Source of the DNA: a virus
Strand: one strand, 5' to 3'
IMG/VR virus record: IMGVR_UViG_3300042882_001042
Location: 1-35,535 of that record
Length of the DNA: 35,535 nt
Shown here: positions 9,980-31,689 of the stretch, piece by piece
Position numbering within the stretch: the first letter of the stretch is position 1
How the letters are laid out: each line of letters starts with the position of its first letter
Notes under the pieces: generated by a model
The model's input: only the letters and a program-made list of their open reading frames with translations
What the model was told of the DNA's origin: nothing
The model's database searches: none
Program-made: the position numbers and the translations under genes

Positions 9980-10174
9980 TTAATATTTTGACTCTTTTGG
10001 CATAAAAATCCATAAAAGGAAGTATGTTAAAATAATTGGGAATGGTGTAAAAATTAATGCAAAAAATATTATTTTAACAAATACTTCATCAATATCAAAA
10101 TAATCTCCTAATCCACTGCAAACCCCTCCTAAATCTGAAGGAGTTTTTCTTTCTAATTTTTTCTTGTTACTCAT
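9980..10174 (-). CDS. PspC-domain membrane protein (64 aa)
   Basis: Almost exactly one PspC domain: LERKTPSDLGGVCSGLGDYF, then DIDEVFVKIIFFALIFTPFP and a second hydrophobic stretch ILTYFLLWIFMP. In bacteria PspC is a membrane-stress sensor that recruits phage-shock proteins. A stand-alone copy in a lytic-type phage could modulate the host response to membrane damage, which is inference. Its start overlaps the stop of the upstream HAD gene by 4 bases, so translation is coupled. Confidence 0.88.
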   Translation of the reverse strand: MSNKKKLERKTPSDLGGVCSGLGDYFDIDEVFVKIIFFALIFTPFPIILTYFLLWIFMPKESKY

Positions 10175-10740
10175 TTTAAATAATTTAATAATTGTTCTTT
10201 TATTCCGGATTGTTTGATTCCTTCATTTTCTCTTGGTGTTCTAACAAAATTAGTTAGTCCCCAGTTTCTTTTAAATCCATATCCATCGTCTTCACCTAAT
10301 GATAAATCATCAACACACACCCAATGTGTAATTTCAGGATGGTCAGTTAGATATTGTCTAACTTCTATACATCTTTGTTGTTCGTACATTGTTGACCTGA
10401 ACCATTCAAACTCATCAGGTTTATCACAACCTATGTATCGTTTGGTGAATGCGATTGGTTTTTTGATGATTCCTTCTGAAAGGTAATAATCACCAAGTTC
10501 TTCTAAAGTTCCATATAATCTCCAATCAGAGGAAACAACGATTTCTGCACCGGTTTCTTCCAATACCTGATTTAAGACCTTAACCGCCTTTTTATCGAAA
10601 TAATCAAAACGATATTTTGCTTCAACATCCGGGTCATTCATCACCAAAGATATATTGTCTTTTTTTCGTTTTTTTACACGACTTCCCCAATTATTCGCCA
10701 AACAGATAACACCATCGTTATCTAGGAATATTACTTTCAT
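10171..10740 (-). CDS. HAD-family hydrolase (189 aa)
   Basis: Motif I is FLDNDGVI (D6, D8), motif II is IVVSSDWRLYG (Ser/Thr), and the acidic motif near the C-terminus is VCVDDLSLGEDDG. This pattern resembles HAD domains associated with RNA-repair (Swiss-army-knife) proteins and small phage HAD phosphatases; the substrate is unknown. It overlaps the upstream small ORF by 23 bases and the downstream PspC gene by 4 bases, so all are one translationally coupled unit. Confidence 0.78.
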   Translation of the reverse strand: MKVIFLDNDGVICLANNWGSRVKKRKKDNISLVMNDPDVEAKYRFDYFDKKAVKVLNQVLEETGAEIVVSSDWRLYGTLEELGDYYLSEGIIKKPIAFTKRYIGCDKPDEFEWFRSTMYEQQRCIEVRQYLTDHPEITHWVCVDDLSLGEDDGYGFKRNWGLTNFVRTPRENEGIKQSGIKEQLLNYLK

Positions 10741-16079: not shown

Positions 16080-16089
16080 CAACATAAAA

Positions 16090-16111
16090 AAAGGGGATTT
16101 TCATCCCCTTT
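16090..16111. terminator. bidirectional terminator
   Basis: AAAGGGGAT (16090-16098) pairs with ATCCCCTTT (16103-16111), between convergent genes, with A/T tracts on both sides. Confidence 0.85.
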
Positions 16112-16115
16112 CTTA

Positions 16116-18131
16116 TTATCTACCTTTTTTCTGAATTGTGATATCCTCACCCTTCATTTTGATTTGGTAGGATTTACCCTCAACCATTTTACCGGTTAAT
16201 ACTTCTTCGGATAACAAGTCCTCAATTTTGTCTTGAATTGCTCTCTTCAATGGTCTTGCTCCATATACTTCATCGTATCCAATTTTAGATAGGTATTTAA
16301 CAACCTCATCGTCATAAGTTACGGTATATTTCATCTCACCAAGACGAGTCATTAATTTCTTTAACTCAATCTCTGTAATTTTTTCAATATCTTCAGGAGA
16401 TAATGAATTGAAGACAATAGTGTCGTCAATACGGTTAATGAACTCCGGAGAGAAGAAATTCTTCATCTCTTTCATCAAGATTTCTTTCTTAGCTTCTTCA
16501 TCTGCGTAAGAGTTATTAGAGAATCCAATACCAGTACCAAAGTCTTGTAATTTCTTAACACCTAAATTAGATGTAAGGATAATCAAAGTATTCTTGAAGT
16601 TAATCTTTCTACCTAAACTATCGGTTACGTGTCCATCATCTAAGATTTGAAGTAATACCGTGAAAACATCTTTGTGAGCTTTCTCAACCTCATCAAATAA
16701 GATTACAGAATATGGTTTGTTTTTAACTTTCTCAGTTAATAAACCACCTTCTTCGTACCCAACATATCCCGGAGGTGCTCCAACTAATTTAGATATGGTG
16801 TGTTTTTCTTGGTATTCTGACATATCCACACGGATAAGTGAATCCTCAGTACCAAACATCTCTTTAGCCAATTGTTTTGCCAAGTGAGTTTTACCCACTC
16901 CGGTTGAACCTAAGAAGATAAATGAACCAATAGGTCTGTTAGGGTCTTTGATACCTAAACGGTTTCTCTTAATTGATTTTGCAATCTTGATAACTGCAGG
17001 GTCTTGACCAATAACTTTACCCATAATTGATTTATCTAAATTCATTAATGCTTTAGAATCGTCAGCGTCCATTTTATTCACAGGAATCTTAGTCATACTT
17101 GATACAACTTCATAAACGGTGTTAAGAGCGATTGTTTGTTTCTCTAAATCCATTTGTTTTGCAAACTTTTCTTTCTCGGACTCAAGTTTAACCAATAACT
17201 TTTTCTCCTTATCTCTAAGTTGTGCCGCTTGTTCGTAGTTTTGTTTTTTAACTACTTCCATTTTTTCAAGTTTAATCTCAGCCGCTTTCTTTTTCAATTC
17301 CTCAATAACTTCAGGAACTTTAATCTCGGTTTGCATACGAGCCCCAACCTCATCTAAGATGTCAAATGCTTTATCCGGGAACTCACGGTCAGTGATGTAA
17401 CGGTCCGCCAACTTAACACAAGTCTCAACAACTTCATCACTATACAACACCTTGTGGTATGATTCGTATTTATCACGAACATTTTTAAGGATTTCGATTG
17501 TCTCCGCAACTGTTGATGGTTCTACAACTACTTTTTGGAATCTACGTTCCAACGCTCCGTCTTTCTCAATGTTTTTACGGAACTCATCAAGAGTTGTTGC
17601 TCCAATACATTGAACCTCTCCACGAGCAAGTGCTGGTTTGAAGATGTTTGAACCATCCATTGAACCTGATGAATTACCTGAACCAACTAATGTGTGAATC
17701 TCATCGATAAACACGATGATGTTTGGATTAGCACTTAGTTCTTCGATAATTACTTTCATTCTTTCCTCGAATTGTCCACGATACTTTGTACCTGCAACAA
17801 CTGAAGTTAAGTCAAGGTTTACGATTCTTTTGTCCACTAAGTTTCTTGGACATTCTCCACTTACAATTTTCATGGCAAGACCCTCAACAAGTGCGGTTTT
17901 ACCACACCCGGGTTCACCTATGATAATAGGGTTATTCTTTTTTCTACGAGAAAGGATTTGTGCGATTCTCAAAATCTCGGCATCTCTACCAATTACAGGG
18001 TCTAATTTACCTGCCTCAGCTAGTTTGTTTAAATCTCTACTGAAATTGTCTAATACAGGAGTATTTGTGTCCATAGCTTGTTTTTGAGCTCTGTTACCTG
18101 ATTTGTCGTTTTCGTCCATTAAGTCGTTCAT
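16116..18131 (-). CDS. clpC: ClpC-like AAA+ unfoldase lacking the N-domain (671 aa)
   Basis: Hsp100 protein with two AAA+ domains. D1 has Walker A GEPGCGKT (72-79), pore loop KYRG (116-119) and Walker B FIDEIH (141-146). A short middle region has a UVR motif NYEQAAQLRDKEKKL (298-312), as in ClpC and not the long coiled coil of ClpB. D2 has Walker A GSTGVGKT (408-415), pore loop GYVG (455-458) and ILFDE (477-481). GIGF (534-537) sits where ClpA/ClpC/ClpX carry their ClpP-docking loop, so a ClpP partner, presumably the host's, is expected; no clpP is in the window. Cellular ClpC is about 820-850 residues; the N-terminal adaptor-binding domain is absent here. It is divergent from a double-UVR gene. 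Confidence 0.93.
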   Translation of the reverse strand: MNDLMDENDKSGNRAQKQAMDTNTPVLDNFSRDLNKLAEAGKLDPVIGRDAEILRIAQILSRRKKNNPIIIGEPGCGKTALVEGLAMKIVSGECPRNLVDKRIVNLDLTSVVAGTKYRGQFEERMKVIIEELSANPNIIVFIDEIHTLVGSGNSSGSMDGSNIFKPALARGEVQCIGATTLDEFRKNIEKDGALERRFQKVVVEPSTVAETIEILKNVRDKYESYHKVLYSDEVVETCVKLADRYITDREFPDKAFDILDEVGARMQTEIKVPEVIEELKKKAAEIKLEKMEVVKKQNYEQAAQLRDKEKKLLVKLESEKEKFAKQMDLEKQTIALNTVYEVVSSMTKIPVNKMDADDSKALMNLDKSIMGKVIGQDPAVIKIAKSIKRNRLGIKDPNRPIGSFIFLGSTGVGKTHLAKQLAKEMFGTEDSLIRVDMSEYQEKHTISKLVGAPPGYVGYEEGGLLTEKVKNKPYSVILFDEVEKAHKDVFTVLLQILDDGHVTDSLGRKINFKNTLIILTSNLGVKKLQDFGTGIGFSNNSYADEEAKKEILMKEMKNFFSPEFINRIDDTIVFNSLSPEDIEKITEIELKKLMTRLGEMKYTVTYDDEVVKYLSKIGYDEVYGARPLKRAIQDKIEDLLSEEVLTGKMVEGKSYQIKMKGEDITIQKKGR

Positions 18132-18303
18132 AGTTTTCTAATTTTATTTTACAAAGGTCCATCAAATTTTATTCTTATCCTAATTTTTCGACAAATTGTC
18201 AGTAAATTTTTTTTAACCTGACATATTGACATATTTATTCGAATGGTATATTATTTGAATAGTACAAAGGTATAAAAATAAATCTGAATAAAAAAATTAA
18301 ATT
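18132..18303. promoter_or_regulatory. divergent promoter region between clpC-like and UVR genes
   Basis: 172-base A/T-rich gap. On the minus strand GACCTTTG (one mismatch to TAnnTTTG) lies at about 18152-18159. On the plus strand there is a TATTTATT box (18232-18239) and a TTGACATATT element followed by TATTATTTG, an imperfect -7. CAAAGGTA (18264-18271) is a perfect minus-strand -7 element. Both genes are probably controlled from here. Confidence 0.5.
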
Positions 18304-18681
18304 ATGTTTGGAAACGAAAAAAACTTTAATGACATTTTAAGAGCGTTTGATGATATGTTCGCTCAGTTCGATTCCCGTTTAGGAGAATGGAAATCACAAA
18401 CTAAAGTATCTGAAGATGGTACTATGAAAGTTACTACTTATTATAGAAGTAATGAACCAAAGACACCTAAAGGTGCAAATGGTTTAAAACGACAACTTGA
18501 GTTGGCAATCGAAAATGAAGACTTTGAAAAGGCGGTTGAAATTAGAGACCAAATTAAAAAAATGGAACTTAATCAAGAAACCATTACGAAACTTGAAGAA
18601 GAATTGAAACAATCAATTAAAGAACACAACTTTGAAAGGTCGATTGAAATTCGTGACGAATTAAAGAAATTAAAGAAGTAA
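18304..18681 (+). CDS. double UVR-motif protein, candidate Clp adaptor (125 aa)
   Basis: The N-terminal 60 residues form an acidic/aromatic segment (NDILRAFDDMFAQFDSRLGEW). Two UVR motifs follow in tandem: LKRQLELAIENEDFEKAVEI (about 67-86, then RDQIKK) and LEEELKQSIKEHNFERSIEI (about 99-118, then RDELKK). UVR motifs dimerise UvrB with UvrC and occur in ClpC and in McsA, which binds ClpC/McsB. The McsA zinc-finger cysteines are absent here. Because the neighbouring ClpC-like protein carries a UVR motif and lacks its own adaptor domain, this protein may be its dedicated adaptor. That role is inferred. Confidence 0.8.
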   Translation: MFGNEKNFNDILRAFDDMFAQFDSRLGEWKSQTKVSEDGTMKVTTYYRSNEPKTPKGANGLKRQLELAIENEDFEKAVEIRDQIKKMELNQETITKLEEELKQSIKEHNFERSIEIRDELKKLKK

Positions 18682-18685
18682 AAAG

Positions 18686-18716
18686 AAACCCCGCCCAATA
18701 GGTGGGGTTTTATTTT
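18686..18716. terminator. bidirectional terminator
   Basis: AAACCCCGCC (18686-18695) pairs with GGTGGGGTTT (18701-18710), one G-T pair, then TATTTTT. It also covers the stop codon of the convergent sulfotransferase gene. Confidence 0.9.
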
Positions 18717-19387
18717 TCATATCCAAAAATATCGAAATCTTCTGAAAATAAATTTTGAATGATTAATTTATTTTGAGGTGTTTTGTGAGTTTCATAATTA
18801 ACCTTAATAGGGTTAGGATTAATTTGATATAAGGGGGACAAGGGCAAGTTGATTAAATCACTTAACGGTTTGATGTCTTTACTTAAATCCTCTAACTTAA
18901 AATGATAAAAATCACAATCTACATTTTTCCAACTACTTTGAGTGTAGTAAAATCGAATCCCTCCCCATGATTTTTTATTTTCAATAACATAGTTGATGTG
19001 ATGAGATGAATCACAATAAAAATCATCAATAAAATTTTCAGAATTTTTTGTTGAGTTTAAATGAAGTAAAAATTGGTCAAATGTGTATCCACTAATTGAA
19101 GCACTCGATTCAAAGTCAGGACGATTAAAAATTCTAATTTGATGGTAATATCCGGATATCATTCTATCATAAGGATTTCTAGTTACTTGTATAACTTTAT
19201 ATCCGTCAAGAGACTCAATATCATAGGCAACCATAATTTCATCTAATTTTAAATGAAGTTTTGGTGTGAGATATGTGTCATTTTGAGTGTCTTCAATAAA
19301 CCCATTATCATTTAAACTAACACGTAAGGAGTTAGAGGCGGTTTTTGGGGGATATAAAAATATTATTTTTTGTGTTTTAGATACCAT
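18710..19387 (-). CDS. sulfotransferase family protein (225 aa)
   Basis: PAPS-dependent sulfotransferase fold. The 5'-phosphosulfate loop is LYPPKTASNSLR (about residues 11-22) and the 3'-phosphate motif is RNPYDRMISGYYH (70-82), both well kept. The C-terminus DFDIFGYEK resembles the usual FGY end of Sulfotransfer_2 enzymes. No signal peptide or membrane anchor, so it acts in the cytosol. The ATG at 19387 gives MVSKTQKIIFLYPPK; a longer frame to 19423 is less likely because it lies inside the upstream gene. It overlaps the hydroxylase gene by 11 bases. The acceptor (protein, glycan or lipid) is unknown. Confidence 0.87.
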   Translation of the reverse strand: MVSKTQKIIFLYPPKTASNSLRVSLNDNGFIEDTQNDTYLTPKLHLKLDEIMVAYDIESLDGYKVIQVTRNPYDRMISGYYHQIRIFNRPDFESSASISGYTFDQFLLHLNSTKNSENFIDDFYCDSSHHINYVIENKKSWGGIRFYYTQSSWKNVDCDFYHFKLEDLSKDIKPLSDLINLPLSPLYQINPNPIKVNYETHKTPQNKLIIQNLFSEDFDIFGYEK

Positions 19388-19946
19388 ATGATTCAAATAA
19401 AGATTCTTCAATCCAATCAACAATTAAATGTATTCTATCGGTGTTTCCAAAATTATCAACGGAGTGTTTTTGTTTGTCGTTGTTAATTTCCCATAGTTCA
19501 CCTAATCTTAGATTTCTTTTATCATCACCTACAGTAAAAAAACAATCTTCATTTGTTTGAATTGGTATGTGAATTCTTCGACAAATAACTAAACTAAACC
19601 CTACAATATCAACATGAGGTCTAATGGATTCTCCCGCAGTTAACTTAACTAATATTGCTCTCATTATTCTACCATTTTCTCCGGTGTTGAGTTTAATAAT
19701 GTCTTCAATTTTGGTAATCTCTTCTTTGAATAAAGGATAATGAGTGGTTGGGATTATTTTTAAGTGATTAAAATTAAATGACTTATCAAAAATTATTGGG
19801 ATTGTTTTTGTGTGGATATGTTCAGTCCCATACCTTTTTTGTCTATCGGTAAATTCATCCCAATCCAAATTATTGTCGTTGATTATTTTTAAAATATTCT
19901 CGACATTGTAATCTCCGTGATTAATAAATGTTTCAGTTGCGTCCAT
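19377..19946 (-). CDS. aspartyl/asparaginyl beta-hydroxylase-like 2OG-Fe(II) oxygenase (189 aa)
   Basis: Cupin-fold oxygenase with the family signature: SIRPHVDIVGFSLV (H111, D113 iron ligands), RRIHIPIQTNEDCFFTVG, GELWEINNDKQKHSVDN (H161, third iron ligand) and NTDRIHLIVDW (R171, 2-oxoglutarate binding). It probably hydroxylates an Asp, Asn or related side chain using 2-oxoglutarate and oxygen. The ATG at 19946 is chosen because the longer frame would overlap the divergent gene and its promoter box. The downstream sulfotransferase start overlaps its stop, so the two are co-translated. Confidence 0.9.
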   Translation of the reverse strand: MDATETFINHGDYNVENILKIINDNNLDWDEFTDRQKRYGTEHIHTKTIPIIFDKSFNFNHLKIIPTTHYPLFKEEITKIEDIIKLNTGENGRIMRAILVKLTAGESIRPHVDIVGFSLVICRRIHIPIQTNEDCFFTVGDDKRNLRLGELWEINNDKQKHSVDNFGNTDRIHLIVDWIEESLFESYGI

Positions 19947-19951
19947 AGTTA

Positions 19952-19959
19952 TATTTATA
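19952..19959. promoter_or_regulatory. shared late-type box between divergent genes
   Basis: TATTTATA, 3 bases before the ATG at 19963 on the plus strand. Read on the minus strand it is TATAAATA, the T4 late consensus, 5 bases before the ATG at 19946. One box may serve both genes in a 16-base gap. Confidence 0.6.
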
Positions 19960-19962
19960 AGT

Positions 19963-20295
19963 ATGAGACCATTTGAAAATTTTTTAGTTAGCAGTGTTGG
20001 GTTACAACGCATAATTGAAATATACCTTAAGATAAGACAATATTTCCAATCAGAAGGGTGGAGTGAAAAGGATTTAGAAAATCCACCATATTACTCGGCC
20101 CAATTAATGACCCTTCATGAAAAATTTGGTGGTGAAATAAGAGATTTACTTCAACAGATGAAGGACTTAGGTTTTGAGGTAGAAAAAGAGGATTTTAATG
20201 AATACTTAAAACCTATTTTACAAAACATAAACGAACTAACACCACTAAGCGATGGGGATTACGAGAGAGGAAATCAAGGGGACGAAGATTATTAA
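19963..20295 (+). CDS. hypothetical protein (110 aa)
   Basis: Helical, charged protein (MRPFENFLVSSVGLQRIIEI, EGWSEKDLENPPYYSAQLM, EIRDLLQQMKDLGFEVEKED) ending in an acidic tail (SDGDYERGNQGDEDY). No membrane segment or motif. A late box lies three bases before the ATG. It overlaps the KTSC gene by 44 bases, an unusually long overlap for this window, so the acidic tail is encoded by DNA that also encodes the start of KTSC. Confidence 0.65.
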   Translation: MRPFENFLVSSVGLQRIIEIYLKIRQYFQSEGWSEKDLENPPYYSAQLMTLHEKFGGEIRDLLQQMKDLGFEVEKEDFNEYLKPILQNINELTPLSDGDYERGNQGDEDY

Positions 20296-21292: not shown

Positions 21293-22138
21293 ATGGCTTT
21301 AGTTACATATCTTATAGGTGCTTGTTCGGGCGGTCCCGCAATATTAGTTGATTTTAATAGTTCATCACTACCTGCGGTAAACGGAAACTATTATTTAACA
21401 TTCAACGGAGCGACTGACGATGGTTGTTACGATATTATTGATAATGCTGAGCCATCTACAGGTGTCGATACTGTGACAACTATATCTACGGATTACGGTG
21501 ATTGTGGGGCTTGTTTATCCGCAAATCCAACACCAACTCCAACACCTACTTTAACTCAAACACCAACAAATACTGCGACAAATACACCGACACCTTCAGT
21601 GACGGCAACAAATACGCCTACTGTTACTAGAACTCCAACAAATACACCAACTGTAACTACAACAAACACTCCAACAGTAACTACAACAAATACTTCAACT
21701 CCAACAAATACACCAACTGTAACTACAACAGTAACTACAACAAATACTTCAACTCCAACAAATACACCAACACCATCGGTAACTACGACAAAAACTAGTA
21801 CTCCGACAGTAACACCAACAAATACTTCAACTCCAAGAAATACACCGTCAGTAACTGCAACAAACACTCCAACAGTTACTAAGACACCAACAAATACGCC
21901 AACACCAACAAGTACACCAACACCGTCACCAAGTCCATATCCATTATCAGGTTATAGTGTGGATAATCAATACGCATACACAGTTGAAATATTAGGTAAT
22001 TTTAGTGGTGGGTCAATTACTATAGGAGGACCAGCAAATGGAGTTGCACCACACCCTATATTCACTGATGCAAATGGAGTACCATTCGCTCAGTTAAACG
22101 CAATTACGTTAGGTGGAGTTAACGGATTAAATAATTAA
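21293..22138 (+). CDS. Thr/Pro-repeat virion-type protein (281 aa)
   Basis: Three parts. The N-terminal domain (1-78) is a Cys-containing beta-type module ([39 protein letters not shown]). Residues about 79-218 are a low-complexity Thr/Pro/Asn/Ser linker built from TPTNTPT and TVTTTNT units. The C-terminal domain (220-281) is Gly-rich and beta-like ([18 protein letters not shown]). No signal peptide. The layout fits an extended surface spacer on the virion, such as a capsid decoration or fibre. It starts the plus-strand run leading to head genes. Confidence 0.75.
21530..21945 (+). repeat. degenerate tandem repeat coding TPTNTPT units
   Basis: About 415 bases of imperfect repeats of the type ACNCCAACAAATACNCC and GTAACTACAACA. 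The units vary and have no spacers, so this is coding repeat, not CRISPR. Such tracts change length by slippage or recombination. Confidence 0.85.
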
Positions 22139-30972: not shown

Positions 30973-31689
30973 ATGAAACAATTAAGAATATTAGAGGCAA
31001 CCGAAACCGGACACGGTATATTAGTTGAGGCTGACGCAGGTTGGGTTTCACCAAAAGACAAACATAATGAAAAGGTTTTAAGAGAGGCTAAAGAAATGGA
31101 TTATAGAAACCCATTTGAATTTTATGCCGTTTTACAAAAATATGATACACCTAACAGAAATGGTAGAACATACCCTGAAAGGATATTAAAAAGAGAGGCC
31201 GACAATTATAAAATTGCAATCGAAAAAGGATTATCAACATCAGAGTTAAATCACCCTGAATCATCTTTAATTGATTTAGACCGAGTATCTCATATCATTA
31301 CTGACGTATGGTGGGATAGAAACATATTAATGGGAAAACTTAAATTATTAACTTCTCCGGGATTTCATGAAAGAGGAATTGTTTCAACTAAAGGAGACCA
31401 AGCAGCAAATTTAATGAGACAAGGAGTTACTTTAGGTATTTCTTCTCGTGGGGTTGGTTCACTTAAAAAAGTTGGGGAAAGAAACGAAGTTCAAGATGAT
31501 TTTGAATTAATTTGTTTTGACTTAGTATCATCACCATCAACACCGGGAGCGTATTTGTTTACAAATGCTGACGATAGAGACAAGTATGAAGAAAATCTTG
31601 AAGAAGAAAAAAAATATAAACAAAAAGACGATTATGTTGAGAAGTCAGTTGACTTAATGAAAAAATTAAACGACTTTTTAGGAAAATAA
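30973..31689 (+). CDS. 21: prohead protease (T4 gp21-like)
   Basis: 238-residue serine protease of the herpesvirus-assemblin-like prohead group. The catalytic His lies in STSELNHPESS (H94) and the nucleophile in VTLGISSRGVG (S157 or S158); FELICFDLVSSPSTPGA follows, typical of the family. NRNGRTYPERIL near residues 61-72 is also a conserved hallmark. It degrades the scaffold core and trims head proteins after Glu during maturation. Position between core genes and scaffold/capsid genes matches T4. The charged C-terminus may be an autocleaved tail. Confidence 0.93.
   Translation: MKQLRILEATETGHGILVEADAGWVSPKDKHNEKVLREAKEMDYRNPFEFYAVLQKYDTPNRNGRTYPERILKREADNYKIAIEKGLSTSELNHPESSLIDLDRVSHIITDVWWDRNILMGKLKLLTSPGFHERGIVSTKGDQAANLMRQGVTLGISSRGVGSLKKVGERNEVQDDFELICFDLVSSPSTPGAYLFTNADDRDKYEENLEEEKKYKQKDDYVEKSVDLMKKLNDFLGK

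Follow-up and report, generated by a model that had tools for sequence, protein, structure and literature searches.

A ClpC without N-domain and its divergent double-UVR neighbour: very likely a co-regulated proteostasis module of a phage

The window, i. e. the whole stretch of DNA that was analysed, is a virus record of 35,535 bases that encodes a T4-type portal, terminase, head protease and major head protein. The best portal matches come from the Flavobacterium phages immuto (36%). Moraphages, described in 2025, are large aquatic Bacteroidota phages with hosts in the Flavobacteriia, in which ClpA is a core gene accompanied by HSP20, DnaK and DnaJ (PMC12619734). The window phage may be related to these, the basis being a fit of gene content and size only. 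The locus under study consists of two divergent genes flanked by terminator-like stems:

16087..16114, minus strand: intrinsic terminator-like stem 3' of clpC, overlapped by a plus-strand stem
16116..18131, minus strand: clpC-like gene, 671 aa, without N-domain (a natural delta-N ClpC)
18304..18681, plus strand: gene for a double-UVR protein, 125 aa, the proposed trans adaptor/activator of ClpC
18685..18711, plus strand: intrinsic terminator-like stem 3' of the UVR gene

Since terminator-like stems end both genes, clpC and the UVR gene represent a closed unit with one common intergenic region, in which the two start codons lie 172 bp apart. Adjoining this module, two genes overlap each other, one sulfotransferase-like and the other resembling aspartyl/asparaginyl beta-hydroxylase genes (window 18710-20012). 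Further afield, the window encodes a protein with an extended low-complexity repeat rich in TPT, which may be a surface or fibre protein (21293-22138), and a HAD domain of the Swiss Army Knife RNA-repair type (10171-10740), the latter in a phage that also carries 16 tRNA genes in this window.

From residue 11 onward, the clpC product aligns collinearly with residues 147-800 of S. aureus ClpC (E 6e-222). Its matches to the Pfam families AAA_2, AAA_lid_9, ClpB_D2-small and AAA lie far over the cut-offs, and both AAA+ domains possess Walker motifs and pore loops, while the M-domain gives a weak Pfam UVR match (18.3 bits vs a cut-off of 21.5). The following elements are of particular relevance:

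17895..17918, minus strand: D1 Walker A, GEPGCGKT, residues 72-79 of ClpC
17127..17321, minus strand: M-domain with UVR motif, about residues 271-335
16521..16532, minus strand: GIGF loop, residues 534-537, the expected ClpP-docking loop

The preliminary description of this DNA had listed both ATPases, pore loops, a UVR motif and the GIGF loop, all of which are borne out. It had also claimed that the N-domain is missing, and this holds true: no Clp_N match exists in any frame of the whole window, and a hidden upstream N-domain is precluded because the stop-to-stop frame of clpC opens just 2 codons ahead of the ATG. Likewise, none of 12 related phage contigs of 107-326 kb contains a Clp_N match. 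Among the Hsp100 class 1 unfoldases, the window protein is ClpC-derived and N-domain-less, and not a full ClpC. Within its M-domain, Y299, E300, R306 and D307 are the counterparts of S. aureus ClpC F436, E437, R443 and D444. These positions are retained in 92 of 92 related phage ClpCs (with Y or F at 299), in all of which the G and F of the [IV]GF loop are invariant as well.

Loss of the N-domain may be general in phage ClpCs. Three megaphage records of 484-642 kb, LR745206 (L185 4884-6986), LR756502 (L186 4923-7043) and LR756508 (L187 5019-6989), encode ClpCs of 657-707 aa without N-domain, with neither a UVR gene nor the operator discussed below close by; two of the three have ClpP elsewhere in the record. 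ClpC of LR756501 retains an N-domain-like start. ClpC matches also occur in many 'Listeria/Staphylococcus/Bacteriophage sp.' records that carry no annotation and resemble host DNA more than phage DNA, e. g. OR846854, OR844998 and MT837238, the last of which carries a full ClpC including the N-domain adjoining an Hsp90-like gene.

The neighbour of clpC had been regarded as little more than two UVR motifs. The two UVR stretches are indeed present (52.2 bits, E 4e-14), and their tips retain the pattern F-E-x5-RD (F74/E75 with R81/D82 and F110/E111 with R117/D118), but the protein features a conserved N-terminal region of 55 residues as well. Within residues 1-55, G39 is invariant and W29 and D38 are nearly so, and this part was modelled, at low confidence, as a helix and a beta-hairpin. 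In both structure models, the UVR part forms one long shared helix (residues 74-106) with the tips at opposite ends (pLDDT 61-63), and the protein is partly disordered, again at low confidence. Two regions can thus be delimited:

18325..18444, plus strand: conserved N-terminal region, helix 8-20 and beta-hairpin at about 29-47 (low-confidence model)
18475..18675, plus strand: two UVR hairpins, residues 58-90 and 91-124, with tips F74 and F110

The UVR motifs of this protein also match UvrB, UvrC and McsA, and the best PDB relative of its family profile is McsA (E 7e-7). On the strength of this resemblance, the UVR protein could be pictured as a chance neighbour of clpC that acts in DNA repair, like UvrB or UvrC, or in kinase activation of the McsB type. 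This is extremely improbable in view of a McsA family score of 40.8 bits against a cut-off of 210, of the complete linkage and the exchange with chaperones detailed below, and of a sequence with zero cysteines, hence without the zinc fingers of McsA. In addition, the 125-aa protein is matched by UVR only, with helicase or nuclease domains of UvrB/UvrC being absent. A search of 84,980 bacterial genomes for an ortholog revealed, among the matches listed, only partial UVR-type ones and none in Bacteroidota.

Protein searches of viral contigs provided at least 80 ClpC loci and 35 UVR loci. Among the matches listed, a UVR gene is located within 600 bp of clpC, always divergently, in 72 of 113 ClpC loci. 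When only the UVR alignment served as query in a second scan, 80 loci were obtained, 75 of which possess a divergent clpC while the other five end before that position. All testable UVR loci (75/75) therefore pair with clpC, and none with Hsp20. Chance adjacency of the two genes is ruled out by this linkage together with the common operator.

At 20 loci without a UVR gene, among the matches listed, the same divergent position is occupied by an Hsp20 gene, one of which was confirmed by Pfam HSP20 (49 bits). UVR protein and Hsp20 co-occur in no locus and are mutually exclusive in 34 larger contigs, each searched whole. In a single case, L076 (G022:C1:25513-27294), a full-length DnaK gene holds the partner position next to the same palindrome, and neither UVR protein nor Hsp20 was found on that contig. 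Mapped onto the ClpC tree, these arrangements correspond to about 7 switches between UVR and Hsp20, at least four of which are forced by well-supported branches, and a single Hsp20 clade is rejected (p-AU 6e-5). The site hence accommodates at least two exchangeable partners, the UVR protein and Hsp20, and probably DnaK as a third. A common origin of the N-terminal regions of UVR protein and Hsp20, which appear colinear by eye, is not claimed (hhalign P 0.025, probability 1%). About 20 related ClpC loci, most of them in a separate part of the ClpC tree, have neither UVR nor Hsp20; ClpC can therefore work alone in these cases, or its partner is located elsewhere.

The intergenic region between clpC and its partner harbors the palindrome TGACA-N3-TGTCA, usually in two copies. 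In the window, this region contains the following elements:

18147..18180, minus strand: candidate clpC promoter region, TTTG ... CCTTTGTAAAA
18189..18201, no strand assigned: palindrome copy 1, CGACAAATTGTCA, 1 mismatch to TGACA-N3-TGTCA
18219..18231, no strand assigned: palindrome copy 2, TGACATATTGACA, 1 mismatch, 30 bp from copy 1
18244..18258, plus strand: candidate UVR-gene promoter, -24/-12 (sigma54)-like, TGGTATATTATTTGA

Counted with at most one mismatch in the 260 bp upstream of clpC, the palindrome occurs at 50 of 51 UVR loci, 17 of 19 Hsp20 loci and 1 of 20 others, the latter being the DnaK locus, against a background of 21 in 2,961 random windows. It is also found in 75/75 loci of the UVR query, many of which are the same contigs as in the first set. 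Exact copies are concentrated at the module: 16 large contigs contain 15 such sites, 12 of them at the clpC locus. The spacings between copies cluster at 20-22, 29-32 and 38-43 bp, i. e. about 2, 3 and 4 helical turns, with a phasing resultant of 0.76, or of 0.59 (P about 0.006) when each spacing is counted once. Whole-window counts at two mismatches are at chance level, so that the case for the palindromes of the window rests on cross-locus conservation. Since the operator persists whichever partner is present, the role of regulator does not fall to the partner; the regulator may be supplied by the host or by another phage gene.

A -24/-12-like element, roughly GG[CT]A[CT]-N5-TTG[AC], is present in 47 of 69 partner promoters vs 1.7% of shuffles; its -12 part is mostly TTGA, not TTGC, and overlaps a sigma70-like match in the clade of the window. 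In the window itself, TGGTATATTATTTGA overlaps an 11/12 sigma70-like match (TTGACA at 18226, TATTAT at 18254), which renders the promoter class of the UVR gene ambiguous. On the clpC side, the TTTG elements resemble those of the Bacteroidota promoter consensus. A search of contigs for a phage-encoded sigma54 activator yielded a match only to the AAA domain of ClpC itself, and a literature search on heat-shock palindromes returned no match. In Flavobacteriia, the sigma54 regulon is enriched in hsp20, groEL, dnaK and Clp ATPase genes according to a 2025 study (PMC12316311). A tie between the module and the host heat-shock regulon is thus an attractive possibility.

Taken together, clpC and its partner very likely form a co-regulated phage proteostasis module. 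UVR protein, Hsp20 and DnaK could be stress holdases, that is, co-regulated chaperones whose clients are passed to ClpC without specific docking. Such a scheme, which we consider not probable though deserving of weight, would draw on the common operator to explain co-occurrence without contact, and neither Hsp20 nor DnaK is known to dock on a ClpC M-domain. It would also agree with the failure to find partner-specific ClpC residues: none tracks the partner type convincingly, in a comparison of ~670 columns against ~7 switches that has little power, and M-domain conservation is equal with UVR, Hsp20 or no partner. What it hardly explains is that a protein with a C-terminal half made up of two UVR motifs, as found in the M-domain of ClpC itself, stands beside ClpC in every testable case.

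The peptidase that ClpC would serve is probably also of phage origin. ClpP is encoded by all of the 12 largest related contigs and by 11 of 28 further, mostly shorter ones, in which absence from fragments proves nothing, giving 23 of 40 in total. The catalytic triad Ser97-His122-Asp171 is intact in 15 of 15 phage ClpPs examined, and the full ClpP fold region is present. These proteins share 37-40% identity with E. coli ClpP (a reference sequence checked by its triad positions) and match ClpPs in the PDB with E-values down to 2e-47. In the nearest relative of the window phage, a genome of 309 kb (G001) that encodes a 97% identical ClpC and shows collinearity along the whole window, clpP is located at about 245.2 kb, ~3.7 kb past the point that matches the left end of the window. 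Because of this collinearity, the window phage very probably has its own clpP as well, beyond the left edge of the window. A phage ClpS was not found. As a head-maturation protease, the phage ClpP is an unlikely candidate, given the T4-type enzyme at window 30973-31689.

These data bear on the earlier proposal that the module recruits the ClpP of the host and directs it. Although the GIGF loop of ClpC is present and a host ClpP likely exists, the proposal is probably wrong and must be rated very unlikely, with triad-intact ClpP encoded by related phages and, in G001, so close to the window edge. The other part of that proposal, a phage system that is self-contained and has an accessory protein of its own, is likely, as linkage is complete in the testable loci, the intergenic operator is common to both genes, and neither the contact residues of the M-domain nor the ClpP-docking loop vary.

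Two features distinguish the phage ClpPs. Their IGF-loop pocket is altered (Y60 to T or N, mostly Y62 to H, M92 to T and F112 to S), and they carry ~30 extra N-terminal residues (L138 9178-9921; L116-L123, L190-L195). The altered pocket may, judged from these substitutions, create a private ClpC-ClpP interface, or it may weaken the pairing. Hsp20 and DnaK are classical disaggregation partners, and the phage ClpC could accordingly act as a stand-alone disaggregase akin to ClpL or ClpG, assisted by partner chaperones and unrelated to ClpP. In line with this, phage clpP lies tens of kb from clpC, the pocket is changed as described, and S. aureus ClpC lacking its N-domain is similar to the ring dimers of ClpL (PMC12583610). 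Such a function is nevertheless improbable, considering the invariant G and F of the ClpP loop (92/92) and the ClpP genes on 12/12 of the largest contigs.

A clue to the role of the partner comes from the S. aureus enzyme, whose M-domain tip residues F436, R443 and D444 hold the inactive head-to-head state (PMC5699869). Upon removal of its N-domain, S. aureus ClpC forms head-to-head ring dimers, and rods with ClpP, and does not degrade substrate; if the M-domain contact is broken in addition, a highly active protease results (PMC12583610). As a natural delta-N ClpC that retains those residues, the phage protein should need a factor that opens the M-domain contacts. Control through UVR motifs or the M-domain, independent of the N-domain, is not without precedent: ClpF is a UVR-containing adaptor, UVR proteins were trapped on plastid ClpC1 (PMC8889267), and ClpS acts on Mtb ClpC1 via the M-domain without use of the N-domain (PMC6274998).

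Our favoured, albeit tentative, reading is therefore that the UVR protein serves as an adaptor or activator of ClpC by docking on its M-domain. The N-domain-less unfoldase would feed the phage's own ClpP through its predicted docking loop, and the divergent gene under the same palindrome pair would provide the substrate-handling partner. With its two tips, the UVR protein would resemble the M-domain of ClpC twice over; bound there, it could supply in trans the activation and the substrate capture that the missing N-domain would give in cis. Its N-terminal helix and hairpin, as drawn from a low-confidence model, would be the likely client- or effector-binding part. In sister phages, Hsp20 or DnaK would do the substrate handling instead. 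Speaking against this reading are the roughly 20 ClpC loci that lack a partner, the equal M-domain conservation whatever the partner, the changed IGF-loop pocket of phage ClpP and the low confidence of the UVR protein models.

The same M-domain mimicry could conceivably work in the opposite direction. As an anti-adaptor, the UVR protein would cap the M-domains and, up to its own degradation, keep ClpC inactive or protect phage proteins. M-domain contacts in ClpC are inhibitory (PMC5699869), so that a mimic could stabilise them, and the UVR protein is small and, in the models, partly disordered. This seems rather unlikely, as delta-N ClpC should be off unaided (PMC12583610) and the chaperones that take the place of the UVR protein, Hsp20 or DnaK, promote client handling instead of blocking it. 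Contact-free holdases thus rank first among the rivals of the adaptor reading, followed by the anti-adaptor and then the stand-alone disaggregase. One might go further and see in the module a new AAA+ protease design, in which the cis adaptor-docking domain is lost for good, trans partners (a bivalent UVR activator that mimics the M-domain, Hsp20 or DnaK) are swapped again and again at one site, the wiring follows host heat shock and ClpP is contributed by the phage. We regard this broader proposal as possible but doubtful.

Several ingredients of the system are already known, namely phage ClpP, ClpA and ClpS, reported for jumbo phages by Iyer et al. 2021 (PMC7824862), a phage adaptor-like protein for host ClpC, and chaperone-bearing Bacteroidota phages. 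No literature was found on the UVR partner, its swap with Hsp20 or DnaK, the missing N-domain or the common operator; the available parts of PMC7824862 and PMC12619734 contain no mention of a UVR protein, partner exchange, a missing N-domain or the operator that we could find, and the term UVR is absent from the moraphage paper PMC12619734. The module offers a natural counterpart of the engineered delta-N ClpC, along with a protein seemingly made for breaking M-domain contacts, so that two or three small genes suffice to test directly how ClpC is switched on without an N-domain. That UVR protein, Hsp20 and DnaK have repeatedly replaced one another under a single operator provides an evolutionary argument for equivalent jobs for ClpC. 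The module suggests, moreover, that Bacteroidota phages of large size come equipped with a complete, stress-wired protein quality control and do not only borrow that of the host.

Among known systems, the Firmicutes ClpCs of S. aureus and B. subtilis come closest to the phage unfoldase, with the same succession of D1, M-domain/UVR, D2 and [IV]GF loop and ~50% identity over the shared part. Unlike these enzymes, which operate with MecA or McsA/B, the phage ClpC is phage-encoded, lacks the N-domain and has no MecA, its partner being a UVR-only protein or Hsp20/DnaK. The phage UVR protein shares the UVR motif with McsA, the activator of protein-arginine kinase, but differs from it by the absence of zinc fingers, by two UVR motifs in place of one and by a score far under the family cut-off. 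A further likeness, again in the UVR motif, exists to plastid ClpF and the UVR2-4/EXECUTER proteins, which are UVR-containing adaptors or interactors of a ClpC (PMC8889267); these, however, are plant proteins with other domains, and the ClpC there possesses its N-domain. Finally, Gp53 of phage SPO1 is an adaptor-like protein that engages B. subtilis ClpC and stimulates its ATPase (PMC6873191). Whereas Gp53 targets the host ClpC via N-domain and linker, the ClpC concerned here is the phage's own and has no N-domain.
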